Source of the DNA: Candidatus Poribacteria bacterium | GTDB lineage: Bacteria; Poribacteria; WGA-4E; JAJDTR01 | DNA: 64,000 nucleotides | Direction of reading: 5' to 3' | Assembly (NCBI GenBank): GCA_022827055.1 | Contig: JAJDTR010000127.1 | Span: 1 to 64,000, forward strand | In this document: in pieces, positions 13,833-51,195 of the stretch | Position numbering within the stretch: the first letter of the stretch is position 1 | How the letters are laid out: each line of letters starts with the position of its first letter | Program-made: the position numbers and the translations under genes | Notes under the pieces: generated by a model | Databases searched by the model: none | Seen by the model: the letters and a program-made list of their open reading frames with translations, nothing else | What the model was told of the DNA's origin: nothing

Positions 13833-16340
13833 ATGAACGAATCTTCAGACATATATGAGTCAATATCGACAGCGACAGTTGCGGAACTTGCCAAAGCCCA
13901 CAAATGGACGCAGGCAAAGTTTGAAGGGGTAGCGGAAACGAAACCGGATGAAGGTTACCTGACCGTGAACTTGGACGCGGGCAGGGTGCAACGAAGCGAA
14001 GTCACCACAACCGGATACGGACTTTACGCAATTGCCAGTTGCCCGCTCCGAATCGCCGACCGAGACTTTGAACGCGGGCTGCATTTTCCATCCGAAGGAG
14101 AGGTAGTGGTTCATCTGCCGAAACCCGCGAAAAGTTTCGAAACCGTTCTTGGCGTAGACAGCAATCGGGTTACCGGTTTCTATTCCAACGCAGGGCGTGG
14201 CACTGTAATTGCCTCAGTCGATGTCAATGGAAATGAGGTTTTTCGTTCGGATGTGCTCCACGAAGGATTGGAGGGGATTCCCCTTACAATCCAGCTCAAT
14301 AGCGCAACCGAATTTGTTCTCGGATTGAGCGATGCGGGCGGGGGGACAATCCAAAGAGTCAATTTCAACCAAGTGGATTGGGCGGAAGCACGGGTGATTC
14401 TGGAAGACGGGGAGACGGTATGGTTGGATGAGCTACCCACTGCCCCGCTGCGCGCCGCATATTCAACCGACGCGCCCTTCTCATTCCGTTATGCGGGACA
14501 ACCGTCCGGTGAGTTCCTTGATGGTTGGAAACTTGAGCGTACCGAGAGAGTGCTGGACGATGAGCGAACCGAACTCGTGACCACCTACTCCGATCCGTCT
14601 AGTGGTCTGCAAGTTCGATGCGTTGCCGTTAAATATGCAGATTTTCCTGTCGTGGAATGGACGCTGTATTTCAAAAACACGAGCGAGGAGCCGACCCCAA
14701 TTATTGAGGATATTCAAGCGCTCGACACCCAAATGGAACGCGGCGGTGACGGAGAGTTTCTACTGCACCACAACGACGGCAGTCCTCATTCCGGCATAGC
14801 GCCGCAAACTCCCACGCAATACGCGCCTCGGGAAACCGAACTCCCTCCCGGATCGGAGAAACGGCTGGCAGCAATGGAAGGGTTGCCGGCTGGAGGTGAT
14901 CTTCCCTATTTCAACGTCGAATGCAACGGTGAGGGCGCTATAATCGCCATCGGCTGGATGGGACAGTGGGCGGCGCAGTTCACACGCGACAATGCCAACG
15001 GCTTGAACATACGAGCGGGACAGGAGCTAACCCATTTCAGGCTGATGCCGGGTGAAGAGGTGCGCACCCCTCTTATGGCTATGCTGTTCTGGGAAGGCGA
15101 TTGGAACCGGTCGCAGAATCTATGGCGCCGCTGGATGATTCGCCACAACCTGCCTCGGCCGGGCGGAAAGTTACCTCCGCCGCAACTGGAAGCCGGCGGT
15201 TCGGCTCAGTATATCGAGATGTCTTTGGCAACCGAAGAAAATCAGATTGAATTTGTTGACCGCTACTTTGAGGAGGAGATCAAAATTGATTACTGGTGGA
15301 TGGATGCCGGCTGGTACAGCTTTCGCGACTATTGGCTAAGCTTGGGAACGTGGGAACCTGATCCGGAACGGTTTCCGCGCGGACTTCGTCCAATCTCGGA
15401 TCACGCTCATTCCAAAGGAGCTAAAGTCATTCTATGGTTCGTCCCTGAAAGAGCGGATCCGGGCGAATGGCTCTACGAAAACCATCCCGAATGGCTGTTG
15501 GGCATCAACGAGGGCAGAAAGCTTCTGGACTTTGGAAACCCCGACGCTTGGGAGTGGGCGGTAGATCACTTCGACTCGCTGTTTATCGAACAGGGCACTG
15601 ATCTCTTTCGAATGGACGGCGACGGTCCACTCCCATTTTGGCGGGCTAACGATTCCGAAGACCGCCAAGGGATTACTGAAATCCGACACGTTGAGGGCAT
15701 ATTGGCTTTCTGGGATGAGTTACGTCGTCGGCACCCTGACATGTTGATAGACATCTGCGCCGGCGGCGGTGCTCGAAACGCACTTGAAGCACTGCGCCGC
15801 GCCGTACCGCTTTGGCGAAGCGATTACGCCTACGAAACAACGGGAATGCAGAACCTGACTAGCGCCATGTCACTTTGGATTCCGTATTTTGGTGCGGGCA
15901 CGAATGCGTTTGAATCGTACACCTTCCGGAGTCAGATGGCACCCGCTGTATCCTGCATATGGGATTTGCGGCGCAGGGATGTTGATTACTCCTTCCAGCG
16001 CCGGGCAGTGGCGGAGTGGCGGCAAGTCTCGGATAACTATTACGGCGATTACTATCCGCTCACGGCTTACCGCACCGAAAACGATGTGTGGGCGGCTTGG
16101 CAGTTTGATCGCCCCGAATCCGGACAGGGGATGGTGCAAGCGTTCCGCCGTCAGGATAGCGATGTCACTCAGATGTGTTTCAAGCTGCGCGGGTTGGATC
16201 AATCGGCGGACTACACCATAACGAATATGGACGTTGACGGATCGACGAAAATCTCGGGTAAGGACTTGACGGAAAACGGTCTTTCAATTACAATTGAGGA
16301 ACAGCCGGGAGCAGCCCTGGTTGTTTATAAACGGCTATAG
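13833..16340 (+). CDS. GH36-like alpha-galactosidase with N-terminal NPCBM-like domain
   Basis: This 835-residue protein starts 7 bases after GGAGG. Residues 1 to about 200 form an NPCBM-type carbohydrate-binding domain. The GH36 beta-sandwich and (beta/alpha)8 barrel follow, including WWMDAGWY and LWFVPERADPGEW. The probable nucleophile is Asp about 595 (FRMDGD) and the acid/base Asp about 664 (LWRSDY), both clan GH-D positions. It should cleave alpha-linked galactosides or related glycosides. There is no signal peptide, so it looks cytoplasmic. Two shorter relatives (38488, 41609) lack the NPCBM domain. It shares the conserved AWQFDRP block near the C-terminus with both. Confidence 0.9.
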   Translation: MNESSDIYESISTATVAELAKAHKWTQAKFEGVAETKPDEGYLTVNLDAGRVQRSEVTTTGYGLYAIASCPLRIADRDFERGLHFPSEGEVVVHLPKPAKSFETVLGVDSNRVTGFYSNAGRGTVIASVDVNGNEVFRSDVLHEGLEGIPLTIQLNSATEFVLGLSDAGGGTIQRVNFNQVDWAEARVILEDGETVWLDELPTAPLRAAYSTDAPFSFRYAGQPSGEFLDGWKLERTERVLDDERTELVTTYSDPSSGLQVRCVAVKYADFPVVEWTLYFKNTSEEPTPIIEDIQALDTQMERGGDGEFLLHHNDGSPHSGIAPQTPTQYAPRETELPPGSEKRLAAMEGLPAGGDLPYFNVECNGEGAIIAIGWMGQWAAQFTRDNANGLNIRAGQELTHFRLMPGEEVRTPLMAMLFWEGDWNRSQNLWRRWMIRHNLPRPGGKLPPPQLEAGGSAQYIEMSLATEENQIEFVDRYFEEEIKIDYWWMDAGWYSFRDYWLSLGTWEPDPERFPRGLRPISDHAHSKGAKVILWFVPERADPGEWLYENHPEWLLGINEGRKLLDFGNPDAWEWAVDHFDSLFIEQGTDLFRMDGDGPLPFWRANDSEDRQGITEIRHVEGILAFWDELRRRHPDMLIDICAGGGARNALEALRRAVPLWRSDYAYETTGMQNLTSAMSLWIPYFGAGTNAFESYTFRSQMAPAVSCIWDLRRRDVDYSFQRRAVAEWRQVSDNYYGDYYPLTAYRTENDVWAAWQFDRPESGQGMVQAFRRQDSDVTQMCFKLRGLDQSADYTITNMDVDGSTKISGKDLTENGLSITIEEQPGAALVVYKRL

Positions 16341-16526: not shown

Positions 16527-17750
16527 ATGCAGGTTAATCCGGCACAGTTGTGGGAGGACGGCTACATTATAATACCGGATTGCGTCCCCTCGAATCGCCT
16601 TGATGAGTTACGTAACAGTTTCGAGGTGCTTGTTGAACGCCAGAAAGAGATATGGGCGCGCGAACGTGGTCCGAACGATCCGCCCGGCGGTCAATGGGAG
16701 ATAGCTCCTCAGCCGAGGGCCACCTTCGGTCCGCTCATTGATGAGGAAACTGCCAATACCGTTGAATTCTGTCTGCACGAGAACACACTGGGAGTTAGTC
16801 GTCAGGTGATGCGGTCGCCCGAGACAATCCTCAAGTACATTACCATCATGTGCAGCCCGGTACAGGATCACGGTCCGTCAGGTTGGCACCGAGATATCGA
16901 ACCCAATCGCGACGGTCCGCTGAGCGGTTTACAAGCGGATATGGCGGCAAACGGTGTCGGGACCGTGCAATGGAACATTGCGCTTTACGACGACGATGTT
17001 CTTTGGATAGTCCCGGGCAGCCACCGGCGCCGCAACACCGATGCCGAGAATCGCACACTGCTTGAAAGCAACCGCCAACCATTACCGAATAGCATGCCCG
17101 TCAAACTCAAGGCGGGAGAGGGTGTGGTCTATTCCAACGCCATCCTTCATTGGGGCAGCAACTACAGCTCGAAACTGAGGAGAACGATTCATCTCGCCCT
17201 TCGAGCATTCGGTAGCAAGCTATTTTCGTATCGACCGTATCTCAACTGGACCATCGACTTCAGCAAACACCTTTCACCATCGGGCAGAGGGACTTTTGAG
17301 CAGTTCAGAAAGCGTTTCGATGCGGAGTTTGACGTCATTGCGCAATCGTTTCGTGCGGTCATCGACAAAGATGAAACGGCATTTCTCGAATGTGTTGCCA
17401 CGCTCCACCCCGGCGAAGAGCACCGGATGATCTGCGTCATGTTTTTGACGAAACTAGCCTATAAGGTCTATCACCTCAATAAACCGGAGGTAGCTGCGCT
17501 GCCCGACGCCGAGCAAGCGGGGCAGGTTGGATGGCCCTGGGAGAGCGTCGATGTTCTTCAGAACGTTGCCAGCCGGTTCACGGTTGATGAGACCGACCTC
17601 CTGTGGAGCCGCTTTATCGACATGGAAAATAGACTCAAGTCGGAGGAGGACCAATACGAACCCGGGTTCCAGACCGGTCCCACCAAGTATTACTTCTACG
17701 ACATGCCTCCGAATTACGAGGTAGAGGACTTTATCGCTACGTGGGAGTGA
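16527..17750 (+). CDS. Phytanoyl-CoA dioxygenase (PhyH) family protein 2
   Basis: This Fe(II)/2-oxoglutarate oxygenase of 407 residues starts 7-8 bases after AGGAGGAG. HxD is in GWHRDIEPN, and the distal His with a downstream Arg is in LHWGSNYSSKLRR. The C-terminal third is a helical extension (about residues 260-407) not seen in the small PhyH paralogues of this window. It is likely a separate substrate group. It follows the GH36-like gene after a family C hairpin, so it may have its own promoter. Confidence 0.9.
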   Translation: MQVNPAQLWEDGYIIIPDCVPSNRLDELRNSFEVLVERQKEIWARERGPNDPPGGQWEIAPQPRATFGPLIDEETANTVEFCLHENTLGVSRQVMRSPETILKYITIMCSPVQDHGPSGWHRDIEPNRDGPLSGLQADMAANGVGTVQWNIALYDDDVLWIVPGSHRRRNTDAENRTLLESNRQPLPNSMPVKLKAGEGVVYSNAILHWGSNYSSKLRRTIHLALRAFGSKLFSYRPYLNWTIDFSKHLSPSGRGTFEQFRKRFDAEFDVIAQSFRAVIDKDETAFLECVATLHPGEEHRMICVMFLTKLAYKVYHLNKPEVAALPDAEQAGQVGWPWESVDVLQNVASRFTVDETDLLWSRFIDMENRLKSEEDQYEPGFQTGPTKYYFYDMPPNYEVEDFIATWE

Positions 17751-21907: not shown

Positions 21908-21978
21908 TCACCGACCGCGCGTTTCACGTAGTCCTCTTGCCGTTCCCAGATTTTAATAGAAGCACGTGAGCCAAAGTG

Positions 21979-22770: not shown

Positions 22771-22892
22771 TGGTCGCACAAGTATCGTTTGTCGGGTGTT
22801 GAATATGCGCACCAACTTTTCGCGGATTTCGCTCTGCTTTTTTAAGTCTCCCGTTACGCTCCGATATTCCATAAAAAGGATGCAACCCTAAA

Positions 22893-23684: not shown

Positions 23685-23781
23685 TACCATTTCTATAAAC
23701 TGCTTGTGCATTAATTGAGTGATTCAGGTAAAGGAGCTTGCATGAAGTGAAACAGAAAGTCTTATCCCCGCACAAAATCGA

Positions 23782-23798
23782 CGGGGCAAGATGCCCCG
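23782..23798. repeat. Hairpin repeat family C, copy 2
   Basis: CGGGGC and GCCCCG flank AAGAT, followed by CCTAC. It matches the copy at 16385 and lies between PhyH array members 3 and 4. Confidence 0.85.
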
Positions 23799-23928
23799 CC
23801 TACGGAGTAGCGATGGATAAAGTCAAGATATCATATGCACTGTTATTCGAGCGAAATGGTATAACTTTTGGATGCTCCGCGTTTGCCTGATTCTAGTCAT
23901 ACCCCGCGATCCAAGGAAGAAGCCTCAC

Positions 23929-24729
23929 ATGTCGTTGACTCCTCAACAATGTTCCTTCTTTGAAGCATTCGGATATATCCTTCTCCCGGGATTGATGACC
24001 GATGACATCGGTTGGATAATTGAGGAACACAAGAAAGTCTTTGAGAAAAAAGGGCTTGTACACGACGGAAGTAGGCGCTCTCAAATTGTGCCATTCAGCG
24101 ATCAGAGCGAGAGGCTCTGTACCTTGCTCGATCACCCCAAAGTGTTGGGCGTACTCAAATCACTGCTTGGCGAAGATTTCAACTACATCGGCGGCGACGG
24201 CAATTATTACAGCGGCGATACGAATTGGCATTCCGATGGATTTCATACCGTCGGCTTCTACGCCAAGTTTCATCTCTACCTCGACCCATTGACGCGCGGC
24301 ACCGGTTGTATTCGCGTAATCCCAGGCAGCCACTTAGGCGGACCATGGCGGCATCATTCGGAACGAGCTCGCCAACCAAACGAAGATTTTGGCATCCAGG
24401 GATGCCACATCCCGTGTGCCGCTATAGAAACCGAACCTGGTGACATCGTCGTATTCAATCACAACATCCTCCACGCTTCCTACGGCGGAGGCACCGCCCG
24501 CCGCCACTTTTGTTTGAATGTGTCACGTCGGGCAAAAACTGACACCGAGATTGAGGAACTCCACAAATACATCCGACGTCCTGATGGATTGCCGCGTTAT
24601 CACCCGAGATCCGCCAGTGTCCACTCCGAACTCATGCGGCGCACCGCATCGCCCGCGCGAATGCGCCACCTAGAGCAGGTCATCGACTGCGAAAACCAGT
24701 GGCTAACGAAAGGGAGACACTCGAACTAA
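23929..24729 (+). CDS. PhyH-family dioxygenase, tandem array member 4
   Basis: I start it at the ATG at 23929 (MSLTPQQCSFF), preceded by AAGGAAG, rather than 23872. It has 266 residues, HxD in WHSDGFH and the distal His in HASYGGGTARRH (Tyr replaces the usual Phe). Its TAA overlaps the next ATG by one base (TAATG), so it is translationally coupled to the SMP-30 lactonase. This is the only array member joined directly to a sugar-lactone enzyme and the best clue to a sugar-like substrate. Confidence 0.92.
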   Translation: MSLTPQQCSFFEAFGYILLPGLMTDDIGWIIEEHKKVFEKKGLVHDGSRRSQIVPFSDQSERLCTLLDHPKVLGVLKSLLGEDFNYIGGDGNYYSGDTNWHSDGFHTVGFYAKFHLYLDPLTRGTGCIRVIPGSHLGGPWRHHSERARQPNEDFGIQGCHIPCAAIETEPGDIVVFNHNILHASYGGGTARRHFCLNVSRRAKTDTEIEELHKYIRRPDGLPRYHPRSASVHSELMRRTASPARMRHLEQVIDCENQWLTKGRHSN

Positions 24730-30385: not shown

Positions 30386-30504
30386 ACGCCATGATCTCTC
30401 CTATTAAAACGATTGACATTTACTGAACCATCTTTCTGAAAAAAGAGAAAACTTATTCTTATATTGACTATTTCATATTCCTCGAACTCGCGTACCCATT
30501 CCTG

Positions 30505-33500: not shown

Positions 33501-33657
33501 GGTTCGGGTATGGGTTACCCTTACCGGAGAACACCTCCTAACACTCAAGGGGCATACGAGCAAAGTGATTTCTGTCGCCTTTTCTCCCGACGGAAAAACA
33601 CTTGCGAGTGGAAGCGCTGATGGCACGATATTATTATGCTCCTTGATCCCTGATTAA
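30505..33657 (+). CDS. Secreted 14+7-blade WD40 protein with internal dockerin
   Basis: It has 1050 residues with a signal peptide (LFSVSILYLSVPLVGDT). It has 14 WD40 blades, then two dockerin-type calcium loops (ADVNIDSFVN, ADINRDSVVD, about residues 636-690), a short helical region (TRKGIVALEQLLTAL), and seven more blades opening with LPKGAKARLSK. In the 430 gene that helical region leads into PNPFNPETWIPY; here the sorting tail is missing and a third propeller takes its place. This may be a gene fusion or an end-duplication. It starts 119 bases after the previous WD40 gene. Confidence 0.9.
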   Translation: MRKKSHLVSRLALFSVSILYLSVPLVGDTSVQSSTKWALPEGARARLAKGWISQIAYSPDGTHLAAAGSVGIWTYDVNSGTEVALFTGHTNGVSSVTYSSDGLMLASGSWDGTVQLWTPRTGENVQILSGHGEGITSVAMSNDKSIIVSGSSDKTVRLWDVQTGKLLHTLVGHEKGVYSVSISFDGTMVASSGGYDEIIRVWNAHTGLQLQTLEGHRNNVTSVAFSPDGSILASGGGYDNTVMLWDIHSGEVAHTLIGHTDWVDTIAFSPDGSTLASGSQDNTIRLWDVRTGKSLLTLGGYIGDVTSLAFSPNDRTLASRSGDNSIRFWNFRSGELLQTIHGHSGRIKSIAYSPDGSLLASGGGDAYIGTDDYSIRLWDVHTGGLFRTLTGHRFPVHSVTFLPDGSTLASSDNAPIIRFWDARAGKGIRRLSGIRGQVDFVVFSPDAKTFAADFGRLIYLRDSRTAEDLHILKGHTDSVRCLAYSPDGNLLASGGHGVYDRIRLWNARTGEHLHTLGNASHFVHTIVFSPDGNTLASASHGAIRLWDTGTQRLLKTFRLSDDVGSLAFSTNGNTLAIGGHGKIRLFDRRTGDLRANLEGHNDTVHSVKFSPDGMTLASGSADGTILLWDLPPSTLADVNIDSFVNIRDLMSVYTQFGETADNRADINRDSVVDVADLLLVAAAIEKNLTALYVHPQSVYTEICDILTTTQVNDWLSDARRLEYRDETTRKGIVALEQLLTALTVWSSVEPHRVAQGLPKGAKARLSKTKLSSNIVYSPNGKLLAVASGRTISFHEASTGAEIGVLSSHSADINCLAFSHNGLTIASGSNDNTVLLWDARTTKQRLVLKGHKGPTHSVAFSLAPYILASAGMDGTIQLWDAFTGKRVRTLEHSGWIKSLAFSPDGYRLASGGWAGKVLIWYVELDEPFLTLEDHSGWVNSVTFSPDGKTLASGGTDELLRLWGAYEGDLKQPLHRHASGILSTTFSPDGMLLASGGYDNTVRVWVTLTGEHLLTLKGHTSKVISVAFSPDGKTLASGSADGTILLCSLIPD

Positions 33658-34868: not shown

Positions 34869-35064
34869 AGGGGCACCGTTTACCAGATTCCGCGATTTTT
34901 CCCAACCACTTCTTTTCTTACGCACCACGTGTCAAGAATCGCCTATCAGTTAGCGCCGGTAACTAGCCAACGACCGCTGAAACCTGATCTTTCCACATTT
35001 CGCTCGTCGCTCGCACGCATTTTCTTTGCCGTTCCAATCCATTCCACCACCACCCCCTGATAAC

Positions 35065-36996
35065 GTGAAAAAATCTCCGCCAACCTCGGTCACGAAGAGA
35101 GCTATCCTAATTGGCGTACTGCTGATTATCGCCAACAGTTACTGGCTCGCCTACATTGAGATGATCTGGCATACAGCCCATTTGACAACTGTTGCGCTTT
35201 CAGTCAACATCCTGTTCGCCATACTGATAATCACGTGGCTAAATATGGGGTTACGTGCCATCGCTCCGAGCGCGGCTCTAGGTCAGCGAGATTTGCTTCT
35301 CATCTACGGAATGCTTGCCGTGGGCAGCGCGTTCTCCGGGCACGACTCAATGCCTCGTTTGATGGGTGTAATGTCCTACGCCCACCGGTTTGCCACGCCT
35401 GAAAACGACTGGGAGGCGTTACTGTTTCGGCATCTTCCCCCGTGGCTTGTCATCGCCGACGCCGGACTGGTCAAGGATTTTTACGAAGGAGAGGTCGGAT
35501 TCTTCAGCGGCGGCTATTGGCGTTACTGGGCAGTTCCCATCCTTTCGTGGTCGGTCGTTATCCTGCTGCTGATAGCTATGTTCTTTTGTCTGACGATAAT
35601 GATCAGAAAGCAGTGGGTGGAAAACGAGAAACTGGCATATCCCATCATCCGAATCCCCCTTGAAGTCAGCACCCGCTCAGGCGCCATCTTTGGAAATCGA
35701 CTTTTGTGGATAGGTTTTGGAATCGCCGCAGGCATCAATGTGCTCAACGGTCTTGAATATTTCTTCCCGACGCTACCGTCGATTCCTGTGAAGGAGTACG
35801 ATCTCAAAGTTCACTTTACGCAGAAACCGTGGAACGCGATGGGCAGCATGCCGCTTCGATTCCATCCTTATCTCATCGGTCTCGCGTTTATCCTTCCGTT
35901 AGACTTGTCGTTTTCCTGCGTGTTTTTCTACTTTGTGGCGAAAGTGCAGATGCTGGTTGGTAGCATGGTCGGCGTCGCTACCTTACCGGGATATCCGTTC
36001 CTGGGGGAACAGGGCGCAGGCGCACTGTTTGCCCTTCTTACCGTGGCATGTTGGACCGGTCGGAAGCACCTTCTGAAGGTATTGTCCAGCATGGTTCGTC
36101 CCAGTCGGGAAGACGACTCCGGCGAACCCATCTCGTATCGAACCGCGGTCGTTACATTCGGTCTATGCATAATTCTGCTGATGCTGATCTGCGTGAAGGG
36201 CGGCATGTCGATCTGGGGGTATGCGCTCTTTATCGCCATCTATCTGCTGATTGTCGTCGGCGTCACCCGAATGCGCGCCGAGTTGGGTCCCCCGATTCAC
36301 GCCATCGGCTACACGACTCCCCAATATCTAATGATTGCCATGATTGGCACACAACGGTTAAGGCCAGGCAATTTGACGATGCTCTCCTTGATGAACTGGC
36401 TAAGCGGAGCCAGCTACGCCTCATTTCGCACCCACCCGATGCCGGATCAGCTCGAAGCCTTCAAACTGGCGGAACTCACCGGCATTCGCACGCGAACGAT
36501 GTTCGCAGCGTTGGTGATTGCCAGCGTGGTAGGCGTCGTCTCCACGTTAATCCTTTTTCCTTATGCCGTCTACGACGAAGGGATCGTCTCCGGATCCGAG
36601 CAGATCCACTCCGGTGGAACGGAAGCGTACAACTTCCTTTCCGCGTGGCTGGTTAATCCGAAGTCCACAGATTGGTTTGCAATGTCTATCCTCGGCATGG
36701 GATTTGTCTTCAATCTGGGGGTCATGCTTCTTCGATCTCGATTCGTTTGGTGTCCGCTTCACCCGGCAGGATACGTTATCGGCGTAGCCCCCGGAACCCT
36801 AATCATCAACGTGCTCTGGCTGCCCCTAGTCATCGCAATGACCGCCAAGTGGATCATACTCAAGCATGGTGGAGTCAAAGCTTACCGTCACGCGATTCCC
36901 TTCTTTGTTGGCTTGGTTCTCGGCGAAGCCCTGCTCGGCTGTTTCTGGCCCATGGTTAGCCTCATCCTCCGCTCCTCTGTCTATAGCTTTTATTGA
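35065..36996 (+). CDS. DUF6785-type polytopic membrane protein 1
   Basis: I recognise the DUF6784/DUF6785 family (OPT-like predicted permeases). It has a dozen or more hydrophobic segments, TPENDWEALLFRHLPPWL and NEKLAYPIIRIPLE blocks, and no signal peptide. The start is uncertain: the track TTG at 35026 adds a proline-rich leader, while the GTG at 35065 lines up with the paralogue at 51196, and neither has a Shine-Dalgarno. It is possibly an uptake system for an oligomeric or peptide-like substrate of the island. Confidence 0.85.
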   Translation: MKKSPPTSVTKRAILIGVLLIIANSYWLAYIEMIWHTAHLTTVALSVNILFAILIITWLNMGLRAIAPSAALGQRDLLLIYGMLAVGSAFSGHDSMPRLMGVMSYAHRFATPENDWEALLFRHLPPWLVIADAGLVKDFYEGEVGFFSGGYWRYWAVPILSWSVVILLLIAMFFCLTIMIRKQWVENEKLAYPIIRIPLEVSTRSGAIFGNRLLWIGFGIAAGINVLNGLEYFFPTLPSIPVKEYDLKVHFTQKPWNAMGSMPLRFHPYLIGLAFILPLDLSFSCVFFYFVAKVQMLVGSMVGVATLPGYPFLGEQGAGALFALLTVACWTGRKHLLKVLSSMVRPSREDDSGEPISYRTAVVTFGLCIILLMLICVKGGMSIWGYALFIAIYLLIVVGVTRMRAELGPPIHAIGYTTPQYLMIAMIGTQRLRPGNLTMLSLMNWLSGASYASFRTHPMPDQLEAFKLAELTGIRTRTMFAALVIASVVGVVSTLILFPYAVYDEGIVSGSEQIHSGGTEAYNFLSAWLVNPKSTDWFAMSILGMGFVFNLGVMLLRSRFVWCPLHPAGYVIGVAPGTLIINVLWLPLVIAMTAKWIILKHGGVKAYRHAIPFFVGLVLGEALLGCFWPMVSLILRSSVYSFY

Positions 36997-37473: not shown

Positions 37474-38331
37474 ATGAAATTGACCGACCAACAACTCAAC
37501 TTTTTTCATAATTTTGGCTACCTGATGATTCCGCAACTCTTTAGTCCCGAGGAGATGGCATGGATCATTGAGGAATACGAGAACGTCCTTCAGAATCACG
37601 CGGGCGGGAATGCTCATGACGGCTCACGACGTACCATGATCGTCCCCTCCTACGGTTACAGCGAAAAACTCTGTACACTGCTTGATGACCATCGTATCCT
37701 TGGGATTGCGTCCGGCATTCTTGGAGATGACTTTAATTACGGCGCTGGCGATGCCAACTACTACGTAGGCGACACTCGCTGGCATCCCGACGCAAGTTGG
37801 CCCGAACTCTTTGCGATTAAGATGACTTTTTACCTTGACCCAATGAGTGCCGACACCGGCTGCCTCCGCGTTATTCCCGGGAGTCATCGACTCGACTCGT
37901 ACTGGCATAAGAATCTGGACGAGGACTGGAGAAACGATCGCGATCACATTAATCTAAACGACTCGGAAGACGTCTGGGGGCTTTCGCCTGCCGACATTCC
38001 CGGGAGCGTTGCGATAGAAACCAGTCCGGGCGATTTGGTATTCTTTAATCACACCATTTTCCACGCCTCCTTCGGCGGGGGAACTCGCCGGCGTATGTTC
38101 ACGCTGAACCTAACTAAAGGCGGCAAGACCGAGGCGGAAATCGCACGTATAGACGCATATCTTACGAGGAACTGCCCGACTGCTCATGGATTCAAAATCG
38201 GTGGAATGTACACTGATCTCACAATCGACACCGCCACCCCCGAACGCCTGAGACACATGACGCAGTTTCATGAACGTCACGCCGTCGTGCATCCTAACGA
38301 CACTATTCCACGCGAATTGCCGACACTCTAA
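37474..38331 (+). CDS. PhyH-family dioxygenase paired with GH36-like gene (cassette 1)
   Basis: It has 285 residues of the array subfamily (MKLTDQQLNFFHNFGYLMIP start). HxD lies in WHPDASW and the distal His/Arg in HASFGGGTRRR. Pro between His and Asp is shared with the GH36-linked copies at 43713 and 46665, but not with the array at 21-24.7 kb. GGGG lies close before the ATG. The GH36-like gene follows after 156 bases. Confidence 0.92.
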   Translation: MKLTDQQLNFFHNFGYLMIPQLFSPEEMAWIIEEYENVLQNHAGGNAHDGSRRTMIVPSYGYSEKLCTLLDDHRILGIASGILGDDFNYGAGDANYYVGDTRWHPDASWPELFAIKMTFYLDPMSADTGCLRVIPGSHRLDSYWHKNLDEDWRNDRDHINLNDSEDVWGLSPADIPGSVAIETSPGDLVFFNHTIFHASFGGGTRRRMFTLNLTKGGKTEAEIARIDAYLTRNCPTAHGFKIGGMYTDLTIDTATPERLRHMTQFHERHAVVHPNDTIPRELPTL

Positions 38332-38487
38332 AACGTTTTGAGTCAGCAAAACTCTATATCCCAGCAAGCGCGGCTGCAAGAATAAGTGAATTTCGTCGCA
38401 TGGCACTGGAAACAGGAATTCATAACCTATGGCGATTCCGTACCTCAAATTCGATATGCTTACACTGGAATAGGAGTATTCCTTCAA

Positions 38488-40611
38488 ATGGTTGATACAC
38501 TCTCTTCGATGCCCGAGGAAATGCAAACAGCCCGGAACTGGATAGCCGGTTCAATTGATGGGCTAGTTCCAAACCTTCCCTTCTCCTTCACGTATGATGG
38601 CGTATCTTCGCGCGAATTTCTTCCGTCGGCGGATCAGGCAAAGTGGACGTGGGATCTAAAGCGGGAAGAGGTGGAGATGGACGAGGGGCGTACACTGCAT
38701 AGTCTGACCTATGACGACCCGCACACGGGACTTCAGGTTCGGTGCGAAGCCATCATCTACGCCGATTATCCGGCTGTCGAATGGATTGTATATTTCCAAA
38801 ACAACGGTGATCACGACACTCCGATTATCGAAGACATCTTGGCGATGGACGTGTCATTCACCCGTCCAGGTCCGGGGAATCCGACTTACGTCAAGCGATG
38901 GATTGAGTGGAAGGGTGAAGCCGAAACCGTCGCCTTGCACAGAGAACCCGGCGAATTCGTCGTCCATCACGCCACTGGGGGTGTACATTCATTCTGGGCA
39001 TTCCAGCCGCACGACGATGAGTTGGGACCGGGGCAGGATTTGACAATCGGCGGCGTTTCATCTCAGCCGGATCTGCCCTTCTTCAACATCGAATGGCCGG
39101 ACGAAGGAGTTATCGCCGGTATTGGTTGGACAGCGCCATGGCGGGCAGATTTTGTTCGTGATCAGGAACGATCACTGAGCGTCAACGTGGCAATGACCGA
39201 ATGGGTAGCACCTTGGCAAGCGGAGGCGATGAGAGGCGCTCATCTCGTTCTGCGACCGGGTGAACGTATCCGCATACCCCGTGTGCTCATGTTATTCTGG
39301 AATCAGGATCGGCTTCGCGCTCAAAATCGCTGGCGACGGCTGCTGCTCGACTACTACTCGCCCCGCCCCCACGGCGAGTTGGTCAAAATGCCATTCGGCG
39401 CCGCAACCCAGTGGCACACCGAGGAACAGAACATTGCAATCATCAACTGGCACCTTGACAACGGAATGCCAATCGAAGACTTTTGGATGGATATCGGATG
39501 GCAGCGGGCGCCATCGGAAGAGGAAGCTTTCGAACACCTCGCCGATGATGTCGTCAATGAAGAACTGTTTCCCAACGGTATTCAAGCAGTGTCCGACGCC
39601 GCTCGTAAACGCGGGGTCAAGTACTTGCTCTGGTTTGGCGGCGATGAACGATGTCGGTTTCAGGCAATCTACCCCTATCTTGAGCGCGTCCGGAAGTACC
39701 GGCCTGAACTGCTGTCCGATGAATATCCCGGCAACGACAACGGCAACCCCATGATTAACAAGTGGATGATAGATCACTATGGAAATCAGATTGAAAATCT
39801 CGGGATCGACATCTTTCGATGGGACTCCCGCAGCACCCCGCCTCCGGACGCAAACAACGACCGAAGAGGTATAAACTGGGCGAGATCAGCCGAAGGGTTT
39901 TACAAGTTTTGGGATGCGCTGTTAGAACGCTTCCCCGGCCTCGTCATCGACTGCTGCGGCGGCGGTGCCGTAAACATGGATCTTGAGACCGTTCAACGCA
40001 GCGTCTTTCTTCACCGCTGCGATTACCAGTGCGGCGGCATCCACGAACCCGAGAACGTGTTCAATCCCACCGGTATGCAGGGCCAGACCCATGGGATTAC
40101 ATCGTGGGCGCCGTTAACCAGCGGGTGTGTCCGCCAATTGAGCACCTACGCCTTCCGAAGCGCATACAGCGCCGGATTGCGAATCACCTTTGAAGTCGTT
40201 GTTGAAAGCTTTTTCACCACTCCACCGTCCGCACCGTCGGAAGAGGAGTTCGATGTCGAACTCGCGCGCAAGCTATCGGAGGAGTACCTTTCCGTCCGTC
40301 ATTGCTTCTACGGCGATTATTATCCGCTCTGCCGATACAATCTTGACGAGGACGCTTGGATGGCGTGGCAGTTTGATCGCCCCGATCTCGGCGAGGGCAT
40401 TGTGCAAGCCTTTCGTCGGACTCAAAGTAACATCCTTACCTGCCAGTATCAACTCCATGCGCTAGAACCGGATACTCGTTATGAGTTGACCAATTTTGAC
40501 ATTCCCGGTACCACGAGCTTGACCGGAAGCGAATTGATGAATGACGGGCTAATCATTGATATCGGGGAGCAGCCCGGCGCCGTGGTAATCAGATACAGAG
40601 CAATCAAGTAG
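38488..40611 (+). CDS. GH36-like glycosidase (cassette 1)
   Basis: I move the start from the GTG at 38386 to the ATG at 38488, 11 bases after AGGAG, matching the paralogue at 41609. It has 707 residues. The probable nucleophile is in IFRWDSR and the acid/base in LHRCDY. FWMDIGW and WHTEEQNIA are shared with 41609. The LWFVPE-type loop of the longer paralogue at 13833 is reduced to LWFGG, so substrate contacts may differ. There is no NPCBM domain or signal peptide, so it is probably cytoplasmic. Confidence 0.9.
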   Translation: MVDTLSSMPEEMQTARNWIAGSIDGLVPNLPFSFTYDGVSSREFLPSADQAKWTWDLKREEVEMDEGRTLHSLTYDDPHTGLQVRCEAIIYADYPAVEWIVYFQNNGDHDTPIIEDILAMDVSFTRPGPGNPTYVKRWIEWKGEAETVALHREPGEFVVHHATGGVHSFWAFQPHDDELGPGQDLTIGGVSSQPDLPFFNIEWPDEGVIAGIGWTAPWRADFVRDQERSLSVNVAMTEWVAPWQAEAMRGAHLVLRPGERIRIPRVLMLFWNQDRLRAQNRWRRLLLDYYSPRPHGELVKMPFGAATQWHTEEQNIAIINWHLDNGMPIEDFWMDIGWQRAPSEEEAFEHLADDVVNEELFPNGIQAVSDAARKRGVKYLLWFGGDERCRFQAIYPYLERVRKYRPELLSDEYPGNDNGNPMINKWMIDHYGNQIENLGIDIFRWDSRSTPPPDANNDRRGINWARSAEGFYKFWDALLERFPGLVIDCCGGGAVNMDLETVQRSVFLHRCDYQCGGIHEPENVFNPTGMQGQTHGITSWAPLTSGCVRQLSTYAFRSAYSAGLRITFEVVVESFFTTPPSAPSEEEFDVELARKLSEEYLSVRHCFYGDYYPLCRYNLDEDAWMAWQFDRPDLGEGIVQAFRRTQSNILTCQYQLHALEPDTRYELTNFDIPGTTSLTGSELMNDGLIIDIGEQPGAVVIRYRAIK

Positions 40612-40700
40612 GACACTATTAATAACGCAATAAGTAAATTTAGGCTTGGAAGAGTAACTTTTAATGAGCATAACAAATACCCCGAAAAAAGGAGTTTACA

Positions 40701-41360
40701 ACGTTTAGAAATTTGCTTATAGCCATGATGGTCTCCCTATTCGCCGCAATTTCAGTAGCCGATGAAATTGCTTACACTACAAGCGGTAAAAAAGTTTTAC
40801 TGAAAGATGACGGAACATGGTCTTATGTGAAGGAATCGTCAGAAGACAAAGATAAATTTGACTTCAGAAAAACAACTTGGGGAATGAGTAAAGAACAAGT
40901 TAAGTTATCTGAAGATATAAAACCTGTTTTTGAGGAAAAAGATACACTCATGTATGAAACTGAAGTTTTACATATGAAATGCTATATTGCCTATAAATTT
41001 ATAGACAATATATTAGCAGCAGCTGTTTATAGCTTTATAGATGAGCATTCAAATGAAAACGACTATATCTCGGATTACAGTAACGTTAAGGATGCACTTC
41101 AGAAGAAATATGGAACTCCCAAGTCAACCGATATAAACTGGAGAAATGATTTATACGCAGACGAGCCGGAACAATATGGATTCGCAGTGAGTATAGGGCA
41201 TTTAGTCTATTGGTCAAAATGGGAAACAGATAGTACAGATATAATTCTATCTCTAAATGGCGAAAACTATGAAATAAGCCATTCAGCATTTTATAATAGC
41301 AAGGTCTTTTATCCTAAGCTGATGGAAAAGCATGAAAGAGAATCTAAATCAGATTTCTAA
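40701..41360 (+). CDS. Exported AT-rich protein of unknown function with apparent ACG start
   Basis: I do not recognise the family. The protein has about 219 residues, with a signal peptide (LLIAMMVSLFAAISVADE) followed by a short lysine-rich segment (GKKVLLKDDGTWSYV) and a WGMSKEQVK block seen in some exported proteins. The frame begins ACG-TTT-AGA-AAT, with AAAAAAGGAG placed 6 bases before the ACG. No in-frame ATG, GTG or TTG has such a site; the track start is the TTG at 40713. Either ACG is used, a sequencing error hides ATG, or the gene is losing its start. Composition is clearly more AT-rich than its neighbours, suggesting transfer. It sits between two GH36 cassettes. Confidence 0.75.
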   Translation, partial: TFRNLLIAMMVSLFAAISVADEIAYTTSGKKVLLKDDGTWSYVKESSEDKDKFDFRKTTWGMSKEQVKLSEDIKPVFEEKDTLMYETEVLHMKCYIAYKFIDNILAAAVYSFIDEHSNENDYISDYSNVKDALQKKYGTPKSTDINWRNDLYADEPEQYGFAVSIGHLVYWSKWETDSTDIILSLNGENYEISHSAFYNSKVFYPKLMEKHERESKSDF

Positions 41361-41608
41361 TATCTGAAAAGAGATTTTTCAAACCCAAAACCACTTATTG
41401 CGATTAATAAAACCCTGCTCACACTGTTTCAGAAACCTGGAATAGGTCACAACTTTTCGGTCACAGTCATGGATTTGGATTCAAAGCAGCGCGATTCATC
41501 GTGCGTCGGGGTTACATTTATCATCAGTGTAAATTTGTTTCGATGACCGTTGAACCCTTGATTTTCAGTATTCTATCGGGAAAGCCGCAAAAATATTAGG
41601 AGTACCCC

Positions 41609-43702
41609 ATGGACTTCCTTTACTTCGCAGCGACCCTCGTTCAACTCGCGCATACCGTGGCTCCGTCCACTGCGGAGAAGGAGCGTGCCCGTGCGTGGGC
41701 TACTACGAGTTTCACGTCCCGCGCACCAACTCCTCCGATCTCATTTAACTACGACGGGGTACCGTTATGTAAGCTGTTGAAAACATGGGTGCTTGAACAA
41801 ACGAGTGAGAGACTGGACGAGCATCGGTCGCTGCATCGATTGACCTACTCGGACCCTCAGACAAGCCTTCAGGTACAACTTAAAGCGGTCGAATACAATG
41901 ACTACCCCGCCGTTGAATGGGTTGCATATTTCCAGAATATCGGCGATAGTGACACTTCGATCGTGAAGGATATTAGGGCGCTGGATCTTACCCTTTCGCG
42001 CGAGGCGCCTGAAGCGCCCATCGTCGAGGAGCGGTGGAACGAGATGGCGGGGCGCTTTGAGCCAAAAGAGATTGAGACAGAACTTCAAGAGTTCGTCGTG
42101 CATTACGCCGAGGGCTCGCCGCCCGAAATTACGGCTTTCCAGCCGTTAGAAGCCAAACTTGGCGCCGGCCAACACCTTCGCATCGGTGGTTACTCCTCCG
42201 TGACGCATCTGCCGTTCTTCAACATTGAATGGGATCATGGCGGCATGATTGCGGCGGTCGGCTGGACGGGTCCGTGGGAAGCAGATTTTGAGCGAGATGA
42301 TGATCTGTCCCTTTCCGTCGAGGCTGGCATGAGCGAGGCGCACTTTCGCCTGCATCCCGGAGAGCGGATTCGGATGCCCAGAATGCTTGTCATGTTCTGG
42401 AGTGATGACCGGATCCGCGGACACAACCTATGGCGAAGACTGCTATTCGACCATTACTGTCGTCGGTCTGAAGGAGAGTTAATGCACGTCCCGATAGGGG
42501 CTGCTGCTCAGTGGCACACCGAAGAGCAGAATATCGCCATGATTGACTGGCATTTGGACAACAAACTCCCTATTGAATACTATTGGATGGATATCGGGTG
42601 GCATCGACCGCCAACAGAGGAAGAATCAAAGCAAATTCTAAACGAAAGCGCCATCAACGAAGAGATGATTCCTAACGGCATTCGTGCCATCTCCGATCAT
42701 GCGCACAACCGAGGCATTAAATACCTGCTATGGTTCGGCGGACCACACTTTTTCGTCAATCCCGATAGAGTGCGGAAACACCACCCCGAGCTCCTGACCG
42801 AGGAATTTCCCGGTTGGGATAACGGTAATCCGATGATCAATCGGTGGATGGTCGATTACTTCTCAAAACTTGTAGAAGACTGGGGCATTGACATCTTCCG
42901 TCAAGATACACGGAATTACCCACTTCCGGATCCCGCGCCGGACCGCGTCGGCATCAATTGGGCTCGCTGTGTCGAGGGGAATTACGAATTCTGGGACGCG
43001 TTGCTGGATCGATTCCCGAATCTACTATTTGACATTTGCGGCGGCGGAGGCATGAACATCGATCTTGAGAGTATTGGACGCTGCTTTTGTCTGCACCGCA
43101 GTGACTACCAGTGCGGCGGGATTCACGAACCGGAGAATCTGTTCAATCCCACGGGAATGCAGGGGCAGACCTATGGACTGTCACTTTGGGGGCCGTTAAC
43201 CAGCGGCTGCTGCCGCGATATGTCTCTATACGCCCTTCGAAGCGCCTACAGCCCGGGCTTGCGCGTTACTTTCGAAGCTGTCACAGCCCATTTCTTTGCC
43301 GACGCCTCGAATCCTCCCCCGGAAGGGGCGTTTGACACTGAACTCGCGGCGAAATTGATGAACGAATACAAATCGCTGCGACACTGTTTCTACGGCGATT
43401 ATTATCCCCTGACGCCCTATAGTCTATCTGAACAGAACTGGATGGCATGGCAGTTTCACCGTCCAGATCTTGGAGAGGGATTCGTCCAAGCGTTTCGTCG
43501 ATCAGAGAGCGACATTCTGAGTTGTCAATACAAGCTGGGTGGACTAGACCCGGCTGCCCGGTATTCTTTGGAAATAGACGGGGACGCCCAATCCGCGACA
43601 ATGACCGGCTCCGAACTAGCGGAAAACGGATTGATCATCACGATTCCCGATAGACCAAGCGCCGCCGTCATCACGTATAAGGCGGAGATCCAGACCGGAT
43701 AG
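41609..43702 (+). CDS. GH36-like glycosidase (cassette 2)
   Basis: It has 697 residues, with AGGAG before the ATG. It is a close paralogue of 38488: WMDIGWH, nucleophile in IFRQDTR, acid/base in LHRSDY and FNPTGMQGQT. It has no signal peptide and no NPCBM domain. The next PhyH gene starts 10 bases after its stop, a strong operon signal. Relative to cassette 1 the order of the pair is reversed (GH36 first). Confidence 0.9.
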   Translation: MDFLYFAATLVQLAHTVAPSTAEKERARAWATTSFTSRAPTPPISFNYDGVPLCKLLKTWVLEQTSERLDEHRSLHRLTYSDPQTSLQVQLKAVEYNDYPAVEWVAYFQNIGDSDTSIVKDIRALDLTLSREAPEAPIVEERWNEMAGRFEPKEIETELQEFVVHYAEGSPPEITAFQPLEAKLGAGQHLRIGGYSSVTHLPFFNIEWDHGGMIAAVGWTGPWEADFERDDDLSLSVEAGMSEAHFRLHPGERIRMPRMLVMFWSDDRIRGHNLWRRLLFDHYCRRSEGELMHVPIGAAAQWHTEEQNIAMIDWHLDNKLPIEYYWMDIGWHRPPTEEESKQILNESAINEEMIPNGIRAISDHAHNRGIKYLLWFGGPHFFVNPDRVRKHHPELLTEEFPGWDNGNPMINRWMVDYFSKLVEDWGIDIFRQDTRNYPLPDPAPDRVGINWARCVEGNYEFWDALLDRFPNLLFDICGGGGMNIDLESIGRCFCLHRSDYQCGGIHEPENLFNPTGMQGQTYGLSLWGPLTSGCCRDMSLYALRSAYSPGLRVTFEAVTAHFFADASNPPPEGAFDTELAAKLMNEYKSLRHCFYGDYYPLTPYSLSEQNWMAWQFHRPDLGEGFVQAFRRSESDILSCQYKLGGLDPAARYSLEIDGDAQSATMTGSELAENGLIITIPDRPSAAVITYKAEIQTG

Positions 43703-43712
43703 GAAATTACAT

Positions 43713-44585
43713 ATGCAACCGACTGAGCAGCAACTCAATCACTTTCATACATTCGGGTTCCTGCTTTTGCCTGCGCTTCTCCAGCCAGACGAAGTGGCAT
43801 GGATTACCGATGAGTTCGAGCAGGTCCTTCAGATTCATGGCGCCGAGCATGACGGTTCCAAGCATACCCAAATTGTCCCGATGCTCGATCACAACGAGCG
43901 ACTTTGTTCACTGCTTGATGACGCGCGCATTTTGGGAATTGCGAGCGCTGTCCTAGGCGACGACTTCAACTATGGCGGCGGAGACGGCGACTTTTGGGTT
44001 GGCGATACGGCTTGGCACCCCGATGGAAATTATCCGGATCTTTTTGCCATCAAGTTTGCCTTTTATTTGGACGCTCTCACGCGCGACACCGGCAGTCTGC
44101 GCGTCCTCCCCGGTAGTCATCTGCCCGAATCCTATTGGCGATGCGGAAATATGCACCCCAATAACGCTCAGGCGTCCTGGGGTATCGATCCGTGGGAGAT
44201 TCCGGGCAATGTTGCGATAGAGACGAATCCCGGGGATCTCGTGGTCTTCAACCACAGTATCTTCCACGCCTCTTTCGGCGGCAGCAATCGACGGAGGCAG
44301 TTTTCCATGAATTTGCATAGACGCGGCAAGACCGATGCGGAATTGGCGCGCATCGATCAGTATCTCGGTCATCACGGCACGATTCCGCGGGGCATCCGAA
44401 TCGGCGGCAAGTTCACGGGACTTAAACCGGGCAGCATGTATACGGACTTCAGCATGTACACCGATCTGATGATTGACACTGCGACGCCAGAGCGGTTGCG
44501 CCATCTTTCACAATTACACCATCGCGTGGCGCATGTCCACCCGGCTGCGGCTCCGCCGCGGTCCCTACCGGCCAACAATACATAG
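43713..44585 (+). CDS. PhyH-family dioxygenase paired with GH36-like gene (cassette 2)
   Basis: It has 290 residues of the array subfamily (MQPTEQQLNHFHTFGF). HxD lies in WHPDGNY and the distal His/Arg in HASFGGSNRRR. AGGAAA lies 8 bases before the ATG. Spacing to the upstream GH36 gene is 10 bases and to the downstream P4H-like gene 18 bases, so the three probably form one transcript. It has an insert before the last helices (GGKFTGLKPGSMYTDF) shared with 46665. Confidence 0.93.
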   Translation: MQPTEQQLNHFHTFGFLLLPALLQPDEVAWITDEFEQVLQIHGAEHDGSKHTQIVPMLDHNERLCSLLDDARILGIASAVLGDDFNYGGGDGDFWVGDTAWHPDGNYPDLFAIKFAFYLDALTRDTGSLRVLPGSHLPESYWRCGNMHPNNAQASWGIDPWEIPGNVAIETNPGDLVVFNHSIFHASFGGSNRRRQFSMNLHRRGKTDAELARIDQYLGHHGTIPRGIRIGGKFTGLKPGSMYTDFSMYTDLMIDTATPERLRHLSQLHHRVAHVHPAAAPPRSLPANNT

Positions 44586-44603: not shown

Positions 44604-45425
44604 ATGAAGGTCAAGTTTCCAGCGACAAACCCCGGATTCCCGTCTTTCGTAACGCTCGACGACTTCCTTGACCGCGACTTTGCCAAATGTATCTCGGACG
44701 AACTTTCGTCCGATGTGGTTAAGGATATAATGGAGCCGTTCCTAAGCGACAACCCGAGGGCGAATTTCTCGAATAACTTGCCGTTCATTCCCGACGGCAA
44801 AGGAGTACCCGATTCCGATCGTCCCTACGAAAAAGATAACGCCTCACACACGTTCAACAGCATACTAAACATCTGTCCTAATCTTTACAAACTTTGGTTG
44901 AAGATGCGTGCCGAAGAATTCTTCAATCAGTGCATTCTTGCAAATCTTGACGCCTTTAGGCACAAAGGAATAGTCTCGACTAACCTCACTTTCAAGACCG
45001 ACGCGCAGTTGTCCATCGCGAAGAAAGATTTCGTTAACGAGCAAACTCAACTCACGATTGCACCGGATTTCCACCTATCAATCGCAAAGCGCGGCTATGA
45101 TGTAAAGGTACATTCGGATAACAGGTACAAGATCCTTTTCGGCGTACTTTTTTTTAACGATGTCCCGTCGGAAGAGGGAGGACAAACGTGTTTTTGGGCG
45201 TCACAGGGAAGTTGTGATGTGCACGATTATCCGCGCTATCCCGATCCAGCCGACATTCGACTCCTTAGCGCGATTGAGCCAAAAGCGGGCAGACTGGTGC
45301 TCGGTATGAACAGCAACGATGCTTACCACAGCGTGCGGGAATACACGGGAAATGGGCGCCGTCAATTTGTCTATTTTTCGTTCTTCGTACCGGATTGTGA
45401 GAACGTCTGGAAGGTCAACTACTAA
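44604..45425 (+). CDS. 2OG-Fe(II) oxygenase, prolyl-4-hydroxylase-like
   Basis: This 273-residue oxygenase has P4H-type spacing, unlike the PhyH genes. HxD is in VHSDNRYKI, the distal His in NDAYHSVREY, and the 2-oxoglutarate Arg in GRRQFVYF. It may hydroxylate a protein side chain or a small molecule. It follows 43713 after 18 bases, so it belongs to cassette 2. The start lacks a clear Shine-Dalgarno, which fits coupling. Confidence 0.85.
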   Translation: MKVKFPATNPGFPSFVTLDDFLDRDFAKCISDELSSDVVKDIMEPFLSDNPRANFSNNLPFIPDGKGVPDSDRPYEKDNASHTFNSILNICPNLYKLWLKMRAEEFFNQCILANLDAFRHKGIVSTNLTFKTDAQLSIAKKDFVNEQTQLTIAPDFHLSIAKRGYDVKVHSDNRYKILFGVLFFNDVPSEEGGQTCFWASQGSCDVHDYPRYPDPADIRLLSAIEPKAGRLVLGMNSNDAYHSVREYTGNGRRQFVYFSFFVPDCENVWKVNY

Positions 45426-45641: not shown

Positions 45642-46475
45642 ATGTCGATTCTGAAGCAGGCGCACCGTGACCATTTTAATGAGTACGGCTACATGGTCGT
45701 AGAGAATGCCGTACCAATTGACCTTTGCAACGCGGTTGTCGATGCAATTTGGGCGTTCTTGGGGATGGATCCGAGCGATCCGGACGATTGGTATCGCTTG
45801 CCTCACGAACCGCCGGAACGTCCGGGCATTGGTATGGTGAGCATGTACTGGCATCAAGCTATGTGGGATGTCTACCAGCATCCACGGGTTCATCAGCTAT
45901 ACAGCGAGGTATACGGCACCGACCGACTTTGGGTGCATATTGACCGGGTAAATATGAAACCGCCACGTCATCCCAATCATCCGGACTGGGCGCGCGCGTC
46001 GGGGTGTCATTGGGATGCGGACACATCAAAATTGCCTCTTAAGTTCGGGACACAGGGAGTGCTCTATTTAACGGACACGGACGCCAATCAGGGGGGATTC
46101 GGCTGTTTGCCAGGGGCGCACAAATCGCTTATCGACGAAGAAAACCCCCGCATTCCGGAGTTAACACCCGGTAAATTTGCCTCAATCCCCGGTAAAGCAG
46201 GATCGATGCTAGTTTGGCATCAGGCACTACCACACGGAAATGGGGCAAACACCTCCGACAAACCGCGATTCGCGCAATATATGAACTTCTATCCCGCGCC
46301 CAACCCGATGGACGAGAAGCGGCGTGAAGAACGCATTACGCTTTGGAAAGAACGCCGAGCTCTAGGCGAGTGGCCGTATACCCTTGATCCACGCGGTTGG
46401 GAGGCAGCGAATTGCGGGCCGCCCAATCTCACTTGGTTAGGACGAAGACTGCTAGGGCTTGACCTTTGGGATTGA
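45642..46475 (+). CDS. Phytanoyl-CoA dioxygenase (PhyH) family protein, divergent
   Basis: This 277-residue oxygenase opens without the array's MxLTPQQ start. HxD lies in GCHWDADTS, and the distal His with an Arg further on is in LPHGNGANTSDKPRF. It is closer in style to proteins 1-4 than to the array. It carries its own upstream spacer with two hairpins and is probably expressed separately. The substrate is unknown. Confidence 0.88.
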   Translation: MSILKQAHRDHFNEYGYMVVENAVPIDLCNAVVDAIWAFLGMDPSDPDDWYRLPHEPPERPGIGMVSMYWHQAMWDVYQHPRVHQLYSEVYGTDRLWVHIDRVNMKPPRHPNHPDWARASGCHWDADTSKLPLKFGTQGVLYLTDTDANQGGFGCLPGAHKSLIDEENPRIPELTPGKFASIPGKAGSMLVWHQALPHGNGANTSDKPRFAQYMNFYPAPNPMDEKRREERITLWKERRALGEWPYTLDPRGWEAANCGPPNLTWLGRRLLGLDLWD

Positions 46476-46664: not shown

Positions 46665-47531
46665 ATGCAACCGACGGAACAACAACTCAACCACTTGCAC
46701 ACTTTCGGCTTTGTGGCTTTTCGCGAACTCTTTTCCTCTGACGAAGTAGCTTGGATTACCGATGAGTTTGAACAAGTCGTTCAAGTCCACGGCGGCGATC
46801 ACGACGGGGCGAAGCACACGGGAACTGTCCCGGCGCTCGATCACAGCGAACGTCTCTGTACGCTGCTCGATGACGCGCGCATTCTCGGTATTGCATCCGC
46901 GATTCTGGGTGACGACTTCAATTATGCCGGCGGCGACGCCAACTTCTATGTGGGGAATACCGGTTGGCACCCCGACGGGAATTATCCCGATGTGTTTGCC
47001 ATCAAGCTGGCATTCTACCTTGATCCTCTTACCCGCGACACCGGTTGCTTACGCGTACTTCCCGGTAGCCACCGTCCCGACTCCCCTTGGAGAACCGAAG
47101 GTTTGCAGCCCCGAGATTCCGAAGTGTCATGGGGTATACATCCATCAGAGATTCCTGGTAACGTTGCGCTGGAAACAAACCCGGGCGATCTCGTAATCTT
47201 CAATCACAGCACCTTCCACGCCTCGTTCGGCGGCGCCAATCGCAGACGCATGTTCACCATGAATTTGCATAAGCGCGGCAAAACAGAAGCCGAATTGGCG
47301 CGTATAGATGAATACCTGAGCCATCACGGCACTCTGCCACGCGGAATTCGTATCGGCGGAAAGTTCACGGGGAACGGTAAGAACAACATGTATTCCAACT
47401 TCAGCATGTACACCGACATAATGCTTGACACGGCTACGCCGGAGCGGCTTCGGCATCTCTCGCAGCTTCACGAACGCGTGGCGCTAGTTCATTCAAAAGC
47501 CGCTCCTCCACGCCCCTTGAACATAAAGTGA
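46665..47531 (+). CDS. PhyH-family dioxygenase, GH36-cassette type
   Basis: I set the start at 46665 (AAAGGAGG upstream); the track start 46518 is far too early. It has 288 residues, very similar to 43713: MQPTEQQLNHLHTFGF, HxD in WHPDGNY, distal His in HASFGGANRRR and the same late insert. It looks like a duplicate of the cassette 2 oxygenase without an adjacent GH36 gene. Confidence 0.93.
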   Translation: MQPTEQQLNHLHTFGFVAFRELFSSDEVAWITDEFEQVVQVHGGDHDGAKHTGTVPALDHSERLCTLLDDARILGIASAILGDDFNYAGGDANFYVGNTGWHPDGNYPDVFAIKLAFYLDPLTRDTGCLRVLPGSHRPDSPWRTEGLQPRDSEVSWGIHPSEIPGNVALETNPGDLVIFNHSTFHASFGGANRRRMFTMNLHKRGKTEAELARIDEYLSHHGTLPRGIRIGGKFTGNGKNNMYSNFSMYTDIMLDTATPERLRHLSQLHERVALVHSKAAPPRPLNIK

Positions 47532-50926: not shown

Positions 50927-51195
50927 GTGCTCATCCTCCTTTATCAGCGTGAGTACCTCAAAAAACCCATGGCACTCCATTTTAGCACGTTGTGCGTCTC
51001 AAATCAAGAAAAACCATTTGCAGAATCGTGCCCGTGTAGAGTGCACCTAGGTTCCTATGACATATTGTGGTAGCTTGATACCGGTGTTTCCATAATTCTT
51101 TGAACAGAAGACCGCCCCTTTATGATATAATCGGCGAGAATAAACCCATGGGTCACTCACCTGTGACCGATTGATTGAAGAGGAAGACGTTCTAT

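Follow-up and report, generated by a model that had tools for sequence, protein, structure and literature searches.

A tandem array of GH36-like and PhyH genes with one conserved predicted operon in a sponge-type Poribacterium

We analysed a stretch of 64,000 nucleotides, referred to here as the window, which forms positions 1 to 64,000 of contig JAJDTR010000127.1 (Candidatus Poribacteria bacterium, assembly GCA_022827055.1). The host is a sponge-type Poribacterium with a genome of 5.57 Mb in 171 contigs (G000). The window carries an array of genes for GH36-like predicted glycosidases and for PhyH-family oxygenases that depend on Fe(II) and 2-oxoglutarate (2OG) (Table 1). A first-pass annotation of this DNA had described a PhyH, two GH36-like, a second PhyH and a P4H-like open reading frame (ORF), and all of them were found in place on the plus strand. 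The 10-base gap that it reported between GH36b and PhyH2 is present as well (43703-43712), and both the GH36-like proteins (57% identity) and PhyH1 and PhyH2 (~60%) are indeed paralogous pairs. The models for the Melibiase TIM barrel and for GH36C both score above the Pfam cut-off in GH36a and in GH36b. For GH36a, the ATG at 38488 is preferred to a longer GTG-initiated ORF at 38386, since the protein of a sister species in the same genus (G001) begins at the same position. The P4H-like protein contains a discernible HxD...H...R pattern, and a search by sequence found no relative of it in the PDB. The genome encodes 11 GH36-like genes of this family and at least 150 PhyH genes, 12 of which lie in the window. 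Because the genome-wide list covers about 150 of approximately 178 PhyH candidates, the PhyH rates given below are slight underestimates.

Do these genes represent two independent cassettes or a single array? All of them lie on one strand, in the order PhyH-GH36-GH36-PhyH-P4H-PhyH-PhyH. GH36a and GH36b are sisters in the phylogenetic tree (support 96/94), as are PhyH2 and PhyH3 (99/100). This rules out two independent cassettes and leaves one duplicated array. The genes and gaps that the first-pass annotation assigned to two cassettes of opposite gene order are as described, but the split itself is a choice of grouping: gain and loss of copies within the array yields the "opposite order" without any inversion. 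As the two cassettes arose by tandem duplication within a single array, the co-occurrence of PhyH and GH36 counts once, not twice. Nor is there support for PhyH and GH36 having duplicated together as a fixed pair: a PhyH1-clade gene of another genus (G003) pairs with a GH36 of a different subclade, and the third clade member, on contig C69, has no adjacent PhyH-A gene. The DUF3157-like gene between GH36a and GH36b is an AT-rich insert that is absent from the sister species, where no gene lies between the two GH36 genes and the gap measures 204 bp (L109).

The genes of the array are maintained by purifying selection. The ratio of nonsynonymous to synonymous substitution rates (dN/dS) lies between 0.04 and 0.13 for every gene compared with G001 (PhyH1 0.04, GH36a 0.06, GH36b 0.13), and synonymous sites are near saturation, with dS values of 0.6-2 in these genes. 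In both species, GH36b and PhyH2 are separated by exactly 10 bp, and PhyH2 and the P4H-like gene by exactly 18 bp. The remaining gaps of the array differ between G000 and G001 (156/345, 216/1263 and 189/138 bp). That the two short junctions are identical despite such synonymous divergence and despite the shifts elsewhere supports joint production of the GH36b, PhyH2 and P4H-like proteins more strongly than any other observation, and the three genes very probably form a tightly spaced operon. A scan for promoters and terminators returned counts at the level of shuffled sequence.

Table 1. Genes of the array and related features of the window, with family assignments.
Feature	Position	Strand	Evidence and remarks
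DUF6785/DUF6784 multi-pass membrane protein	35026..36996	+	Pfam 501 and 93 bits
PhyH1, PhyH-family Fe(II)/2OG oxygenase	37474..38331	+	PF05721 60 bits
GH36a, GH36-like predicted retaining alpha-glycosidase	38488..40611	+	Pfam Melibiase 36 bits, GH36C 28 bits
Weak DUF3157-like gene, unrelated to its neighbours	40713..41360	+	Pfam DUF3157 18.5 bits, under cut-off
GH36b, paralogue of GH36a	41609..43702	+	Pfam Melibiase 40 bits, GH36C 31 bits
PhyH2, paralogue of PhyH1	43713..44585	+	PF05721 57 bits
P4H-like Fe(II)/2OG oxygenase	44604..45425	+	2OG-FeII_Oxy_3 25.4 bits, cut-off 27
PhyH, different subfamily (cluster c8)	45642..46475	+	PF05721 53 bits; orthologue in G001
PhyH3, sister of PhyH2, same clade as PhyH1/PhyH2	46665..47531	+	PF05721 61 bits
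Third GH36-like gene, NPCBM + Melibiase	13833..16340	+	37% identity to GH36a
PhyH, another subfamily, adjoining the third GH36-like gene	16527..17750	+	PF05721 38 bits; pair kept in G001 (L111)

What might the GH36-like enzymes cleave? The structural model of GH36a (predicted local distance difference test score, pLDDT, of 90) has GH36 alpha-galactosidases as its top fold matches, at a template modelling (TM) score of ~0.68. It shares its fold with Mel36A of L. acidophilus (2xn0) and with AgaA and AgaB of Geobacillus (4fnr/4fnq), with a profile match at E 2e-58. The nucleophile D446 and the acid/base D512 are invariant across 27 homologues and align with those of 2xn0, and the positions of the WxxD and Cys motifs likewise align with those of GH36 alpha-galactosidases, although overall identity is only ~16%. 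The alpha-galactosidase substrate motifs DDGW, WFEPE and KWD-N, in contrast, are not found. The clade of GH36a and GH36b instead has MDIGW (MDAGW across the wider family), WFGGx, and RWD-S-R or RQD-T-R, such that the lysine preceding the nucleophile is replaced by arginine and the asparagine following it is lost. Because these motifs of the -1 subsite differ, alpha-galactosidase specificity should not be assumed, and the suggestion of the first-pass annotation that alpha-galactosides are the substrate is unsupported. The GH36 family also includes transglycosylases, for example the raffinose synthases.

The PhyH proteins retain the residues expected of active oxygenases: the iron triad H104-x-D106...H197 and the 2OG arginine (R206/R207) are invariant. 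The AlphaFold2 model of PhyH1 (pLDDT 81) shows the double-stranded beta-helix fold of the family and matches the PhyH-type oxygenases SnoK, HygX, EvdO and EctD, with HygX and EvdO1/2 among the best fold matches, and SnoK is the best profile match of PhyH-A (E 6.5e-10). These closest neighbours, SnoK, HygX and EvdO1/2, act on sugar units of antibiotics; they differ in being biosynthetic, and their identity to PhyH1 is 15-20%. The fold search does not point to a substrate, as enzymes acting on sugars and enzymes acting on amino acids obtain similar scores.

Two published systems offer precedents for oxidative removal of a sugar decoration. The PhyH enzyme FJS/PHYHD1 removes the 2'-O-methyl group from ribonucleosides, and FJS-like sequences have been noted in Poribacteria (PMC12709175). 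By description, it resembles the enzymes considered here in being a PhyH-family 2OG oxygenase that works on a methylated sugar unit; its substrates, however, are free nucleosides (PMC12709175), and no PHYHD1 chain was among the profile matches of PhyH-A. In the use of porphyran, a P450 demethylates 6-O-methyl-D-galactose, so that a decorated sugar is oxidatively unmasked during polysaccharide breakdown, albeit by another enzyme class, a P450 with partners (PMC10033563). Passages of Kamke et al. 2014 report that Poribacteria exceeded all other genomes screened in 2013 by a wide margin in their share of PhyH genes, nearly all of them without function, and propose that a few members have a phosphonate (PhnY-type) role (PMC3909097). 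That expansion concerns the same phylum and the same PF05721 family, with mostly unknown functions, and the passages retrieved from that paper contain no link to glycosidases. Literature searches for PhyH in connection with glycosidases, with GH36 or with the use of polysaccharides found nothing relevant.

Is PhyH found beside GH36 more often than beside other genes? Within 2.5 kb, the association of GH36 with PhyH is the same as that of other catabolic genes: in G000 a PhyH gene lies this close to 4/11 GH36-like genes (36%), 8/27 DUF6785 genes (30%), 9/23 sulfatase genes (39%) and 15/71 Gfo/Idh genes, and the corresponding genome fraction is 0.116. Since many catabolic genes thus have PhyH nearby, a PhyH gene beside a glycosidase in Poribacteria is weak evidence by itself. 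Within 500 bp, PhyH is found at 4 of the 11 GH36-like genes, or 3 of 7 separate loci, versus 6 of 121 control genes (Fisher p = 0.007 by loci). This p-value rests on few loci and on a background computed from family-search coordinates, and it is a guide only, because control families and distance cut-offs were picked with the loci already in view and from several distances tested. At the C44 locus, a GH36 gene has a divergent PhyH-A gene 209 bp away, an arrangement kept in G001.

Other groupings of these families were seen in the same genome. The third GH36-like gene of the window opens a stretch (13833-24729) that continues with seven PhyH genes and an amidohydrolase, next to an SGL gene, and which is largely kept in G001 (L111). 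Four tandem GH36-like genes with gaps of ~15-120 bp and no PhyH nearby make up locus L023 (G000:C46:5174-13248), also kept in G001 (L113). The window further encodes two neighbouring WD40-repeat proteins of 647 and 1050 amino acids (28442-33657), and WD40-like genes recur at other loci of the genome.

Across 85 Poribacteria genomes, GH36-like genes (E 1e-60 or better) were found in seven. Nine further genomes have PhyH1-clade genes (63-68% identity), and only in G003, which belongs to another genus, does a GH36 adjoin such a gene: there, the PhyH gene lies 159 bp downstream of a GH36 from a different subclade than GH36a and GH36b. In the tree this PhyH groups with genes of G006 and G009, and the linkage was therefore either gained in G003 or lost in G006/G009. 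With the PhyH1 clade beside a GH36-like gene in two settings, chance alone looks unlikely, yet the pair does not form a stable module. A second recurrent partner is a sulfatase, which PhyH1-clade relatives directly adjoin in G007, G014, G016 and G019; G007, G014 and G016 also have an AP_endonuc_2-type gene on the far side of the sulfatase. These neighbours again place the PhyH1 clade in a sugar-related context. In G004, G006, G009 and G012, neither a sulfatase nor a GH36 is directly adjacent to the PhyH1-clade gene.

Taken with the enrichment at 500 bp and the base-exact junctions of GH36b, PhyH2 and P4H, the same-clade PhyH beside GH36 in another genus makes a local functional link between GH36 and PhyH likely, as judged from gene context. 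The explanation that we favour, at even confidence, is that GH36-like and PhyH genes multiplied by tandem duplication into a genus-restricted glycan-processing array, which holds one conserved GH36-PhyH-P4H operon and whose enzymes serve one pathway. A sugar compound would enter the cell, with the DUF6785 membrane protein as a possible route. Using Fe(II), O2 and 2OG, the PhyH and P4H oxygenases would either hydroxylate this compound or remove a decoration from it by oxidation, for example an O-alkyl group, and the GH36-like retaining alpha-glycosidase would cut an alpha-linkage before or after the oxygenase step. Glycosidase and oxygenases would then serve one pathway, and perhaps act on one molecule. 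Given the PhyH demethylase (PMC12709175) and the P450 (PMC10033563), it is chemically sensible that a sugar decoration be oxidatively removed before or after cleavage of an alpha-glycoside, and this may occur here. The first-pass annotation had gone further, concluding from repeated co-occurrence that oxygenase and glycosidase act on the same molecule. What stands of this is the local link, carried by the exact junctions and the adjacency within 500 bp; the double count and the high PhyH background speak against the rest.

How far does the pairing extend? We collected 80 homologous GH36-like loci from GTDB genomes, 73 of them not labelled Poribacteria; the DNA examined for these 73 comprises 1.1 Mb and 724 ORFs, and 39 of them have at least 3 kb on both sides. 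None of the 73 outside loci has a PhyH gene (E < 0.01, up to 10 kb of flank), as judged with a profile built on poribacterial proteins that very divergent PhyH outside the phylum may escape. On this evidence we reject a general GH36-PhyH module. The pairing is restricted to few Poribacteria and is not a widespread glycosidase-oxygenase module. Several observations weigh against the explanation that we favour. Only 3 of the 16 PhyH-A genes in G000 adjoin a GH36. Eight Poribacteria have PhyH1-clade genes without an adjacent GH36, and seven of the eight have no GH36-like gene at all; overall, such genes are missing from 7 of the 11 genomes with the PhyH1 clade. Conversely, 3 of the 7 genomes with GH36-like genes have no PhyH-A match, and G009 holds a GH36 orthologue and a PhyH1-clade gene on separate contigs. 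Proline, leucine and ectoine hydroxylases, moreover, stand among the fold neighbours of PhyH1 at similar scores. The recurrent module proposed by the first-pass annotation is thus not supported by the neighbourhood search. An absence of association above background elsewhere, which it had regarded as refuting its proposal, is nearly what we observe: adjacency within 500 bp is enriched, but nothing is seen outside the phylum. The link between GH36 and PhyH is local and labile.

Could the arrangement reflect numbers alone? Abundant PhyH genes in poribacterial catabolic islands would then fall beside GH36-like genes by chance, act on different substrates, and appear repeated through tandem duplication. 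We consider this possible, though doubtful. It agrees with the at least 150 PhyH genes in 5.57 Mb, with the similar PhyH rates beside sulfatase, DUF6785 and GH36 genes at 2.5 kb, and with the empty loci outside the phylum. PhyH is also present in 59/59 related genomes, at roughly 80-350 candidates each, while GH36-like genes occur in only 4 of the 59, and passages of an earlier paper already describe the poribacterial expansion (PMC3909097). Such a background does not predict the enrichment within 500 bp, the junctions of 10 and 18 bp conserved to the base, or the same PhyH clade adjoining GH36 in a second genus. A different core pair, compatible with the array that we favour, seems rather unlikely: DUF6785 for uptake and the GH36-like enzyme for hydrolysis, with PhyH optional. 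DUF6785/DUF6784 proteins are strongly expanded, with 27 matches in the genome, including 35026-36996 and 51175-53121 of the window, and may serve these clusters for uptake. Seven of the 11 GH36-like genes, at 4 separate loci, have a DUF6785 gene no more than 6 kb away, versus 5.7% of the genome, and DUF6785 is also near GH36 in G001 and G003. Most of the 27 matches, however, have no GH36 nearby, and GH36-like loci outside Poribacteria lack a DUF6785 cluster.

Might the genes build a glycoside rather than break one down? The oxygenases would then tailor it in the manner of SnoK/SnoN, HygX and EvdO, and the GH36-like protein would be a trimming enzyme or a transglycosidase. The SnoK profile match, the HygX and EvdO1/2 fold matches and the transglycosylases within GH36 fit this idea. 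Yet no glycosyltransferase, nonribosomal peptide synthetase or polyketide synthase domain was seen among the scanned window genes (part of the ORFs), and the neighbours are catabolic in type (DUF6785, sulfatase, SGL, LamG, luciferase-like); we regard biosynthesis as improbable. Returning to the degradative array, its most specific form is a dedicated operon for a single decorated alpha-glycoside, which a GH36 glycosidase and Fe(II)/2OG oxygenases of two kinds would process one after the other. The oxygenases would take off or alter a substituent that keeps GH36 from acting. We deem this sequential scheme unlikely as it stands. If true, it would assign a role to some of the PhyH genes in the unexplained poribacterial expansion. 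The GH36-PhyH-P4H operon with its base-exact junctions is one of the few sites where the context of PhyH offers a testable substrate class.

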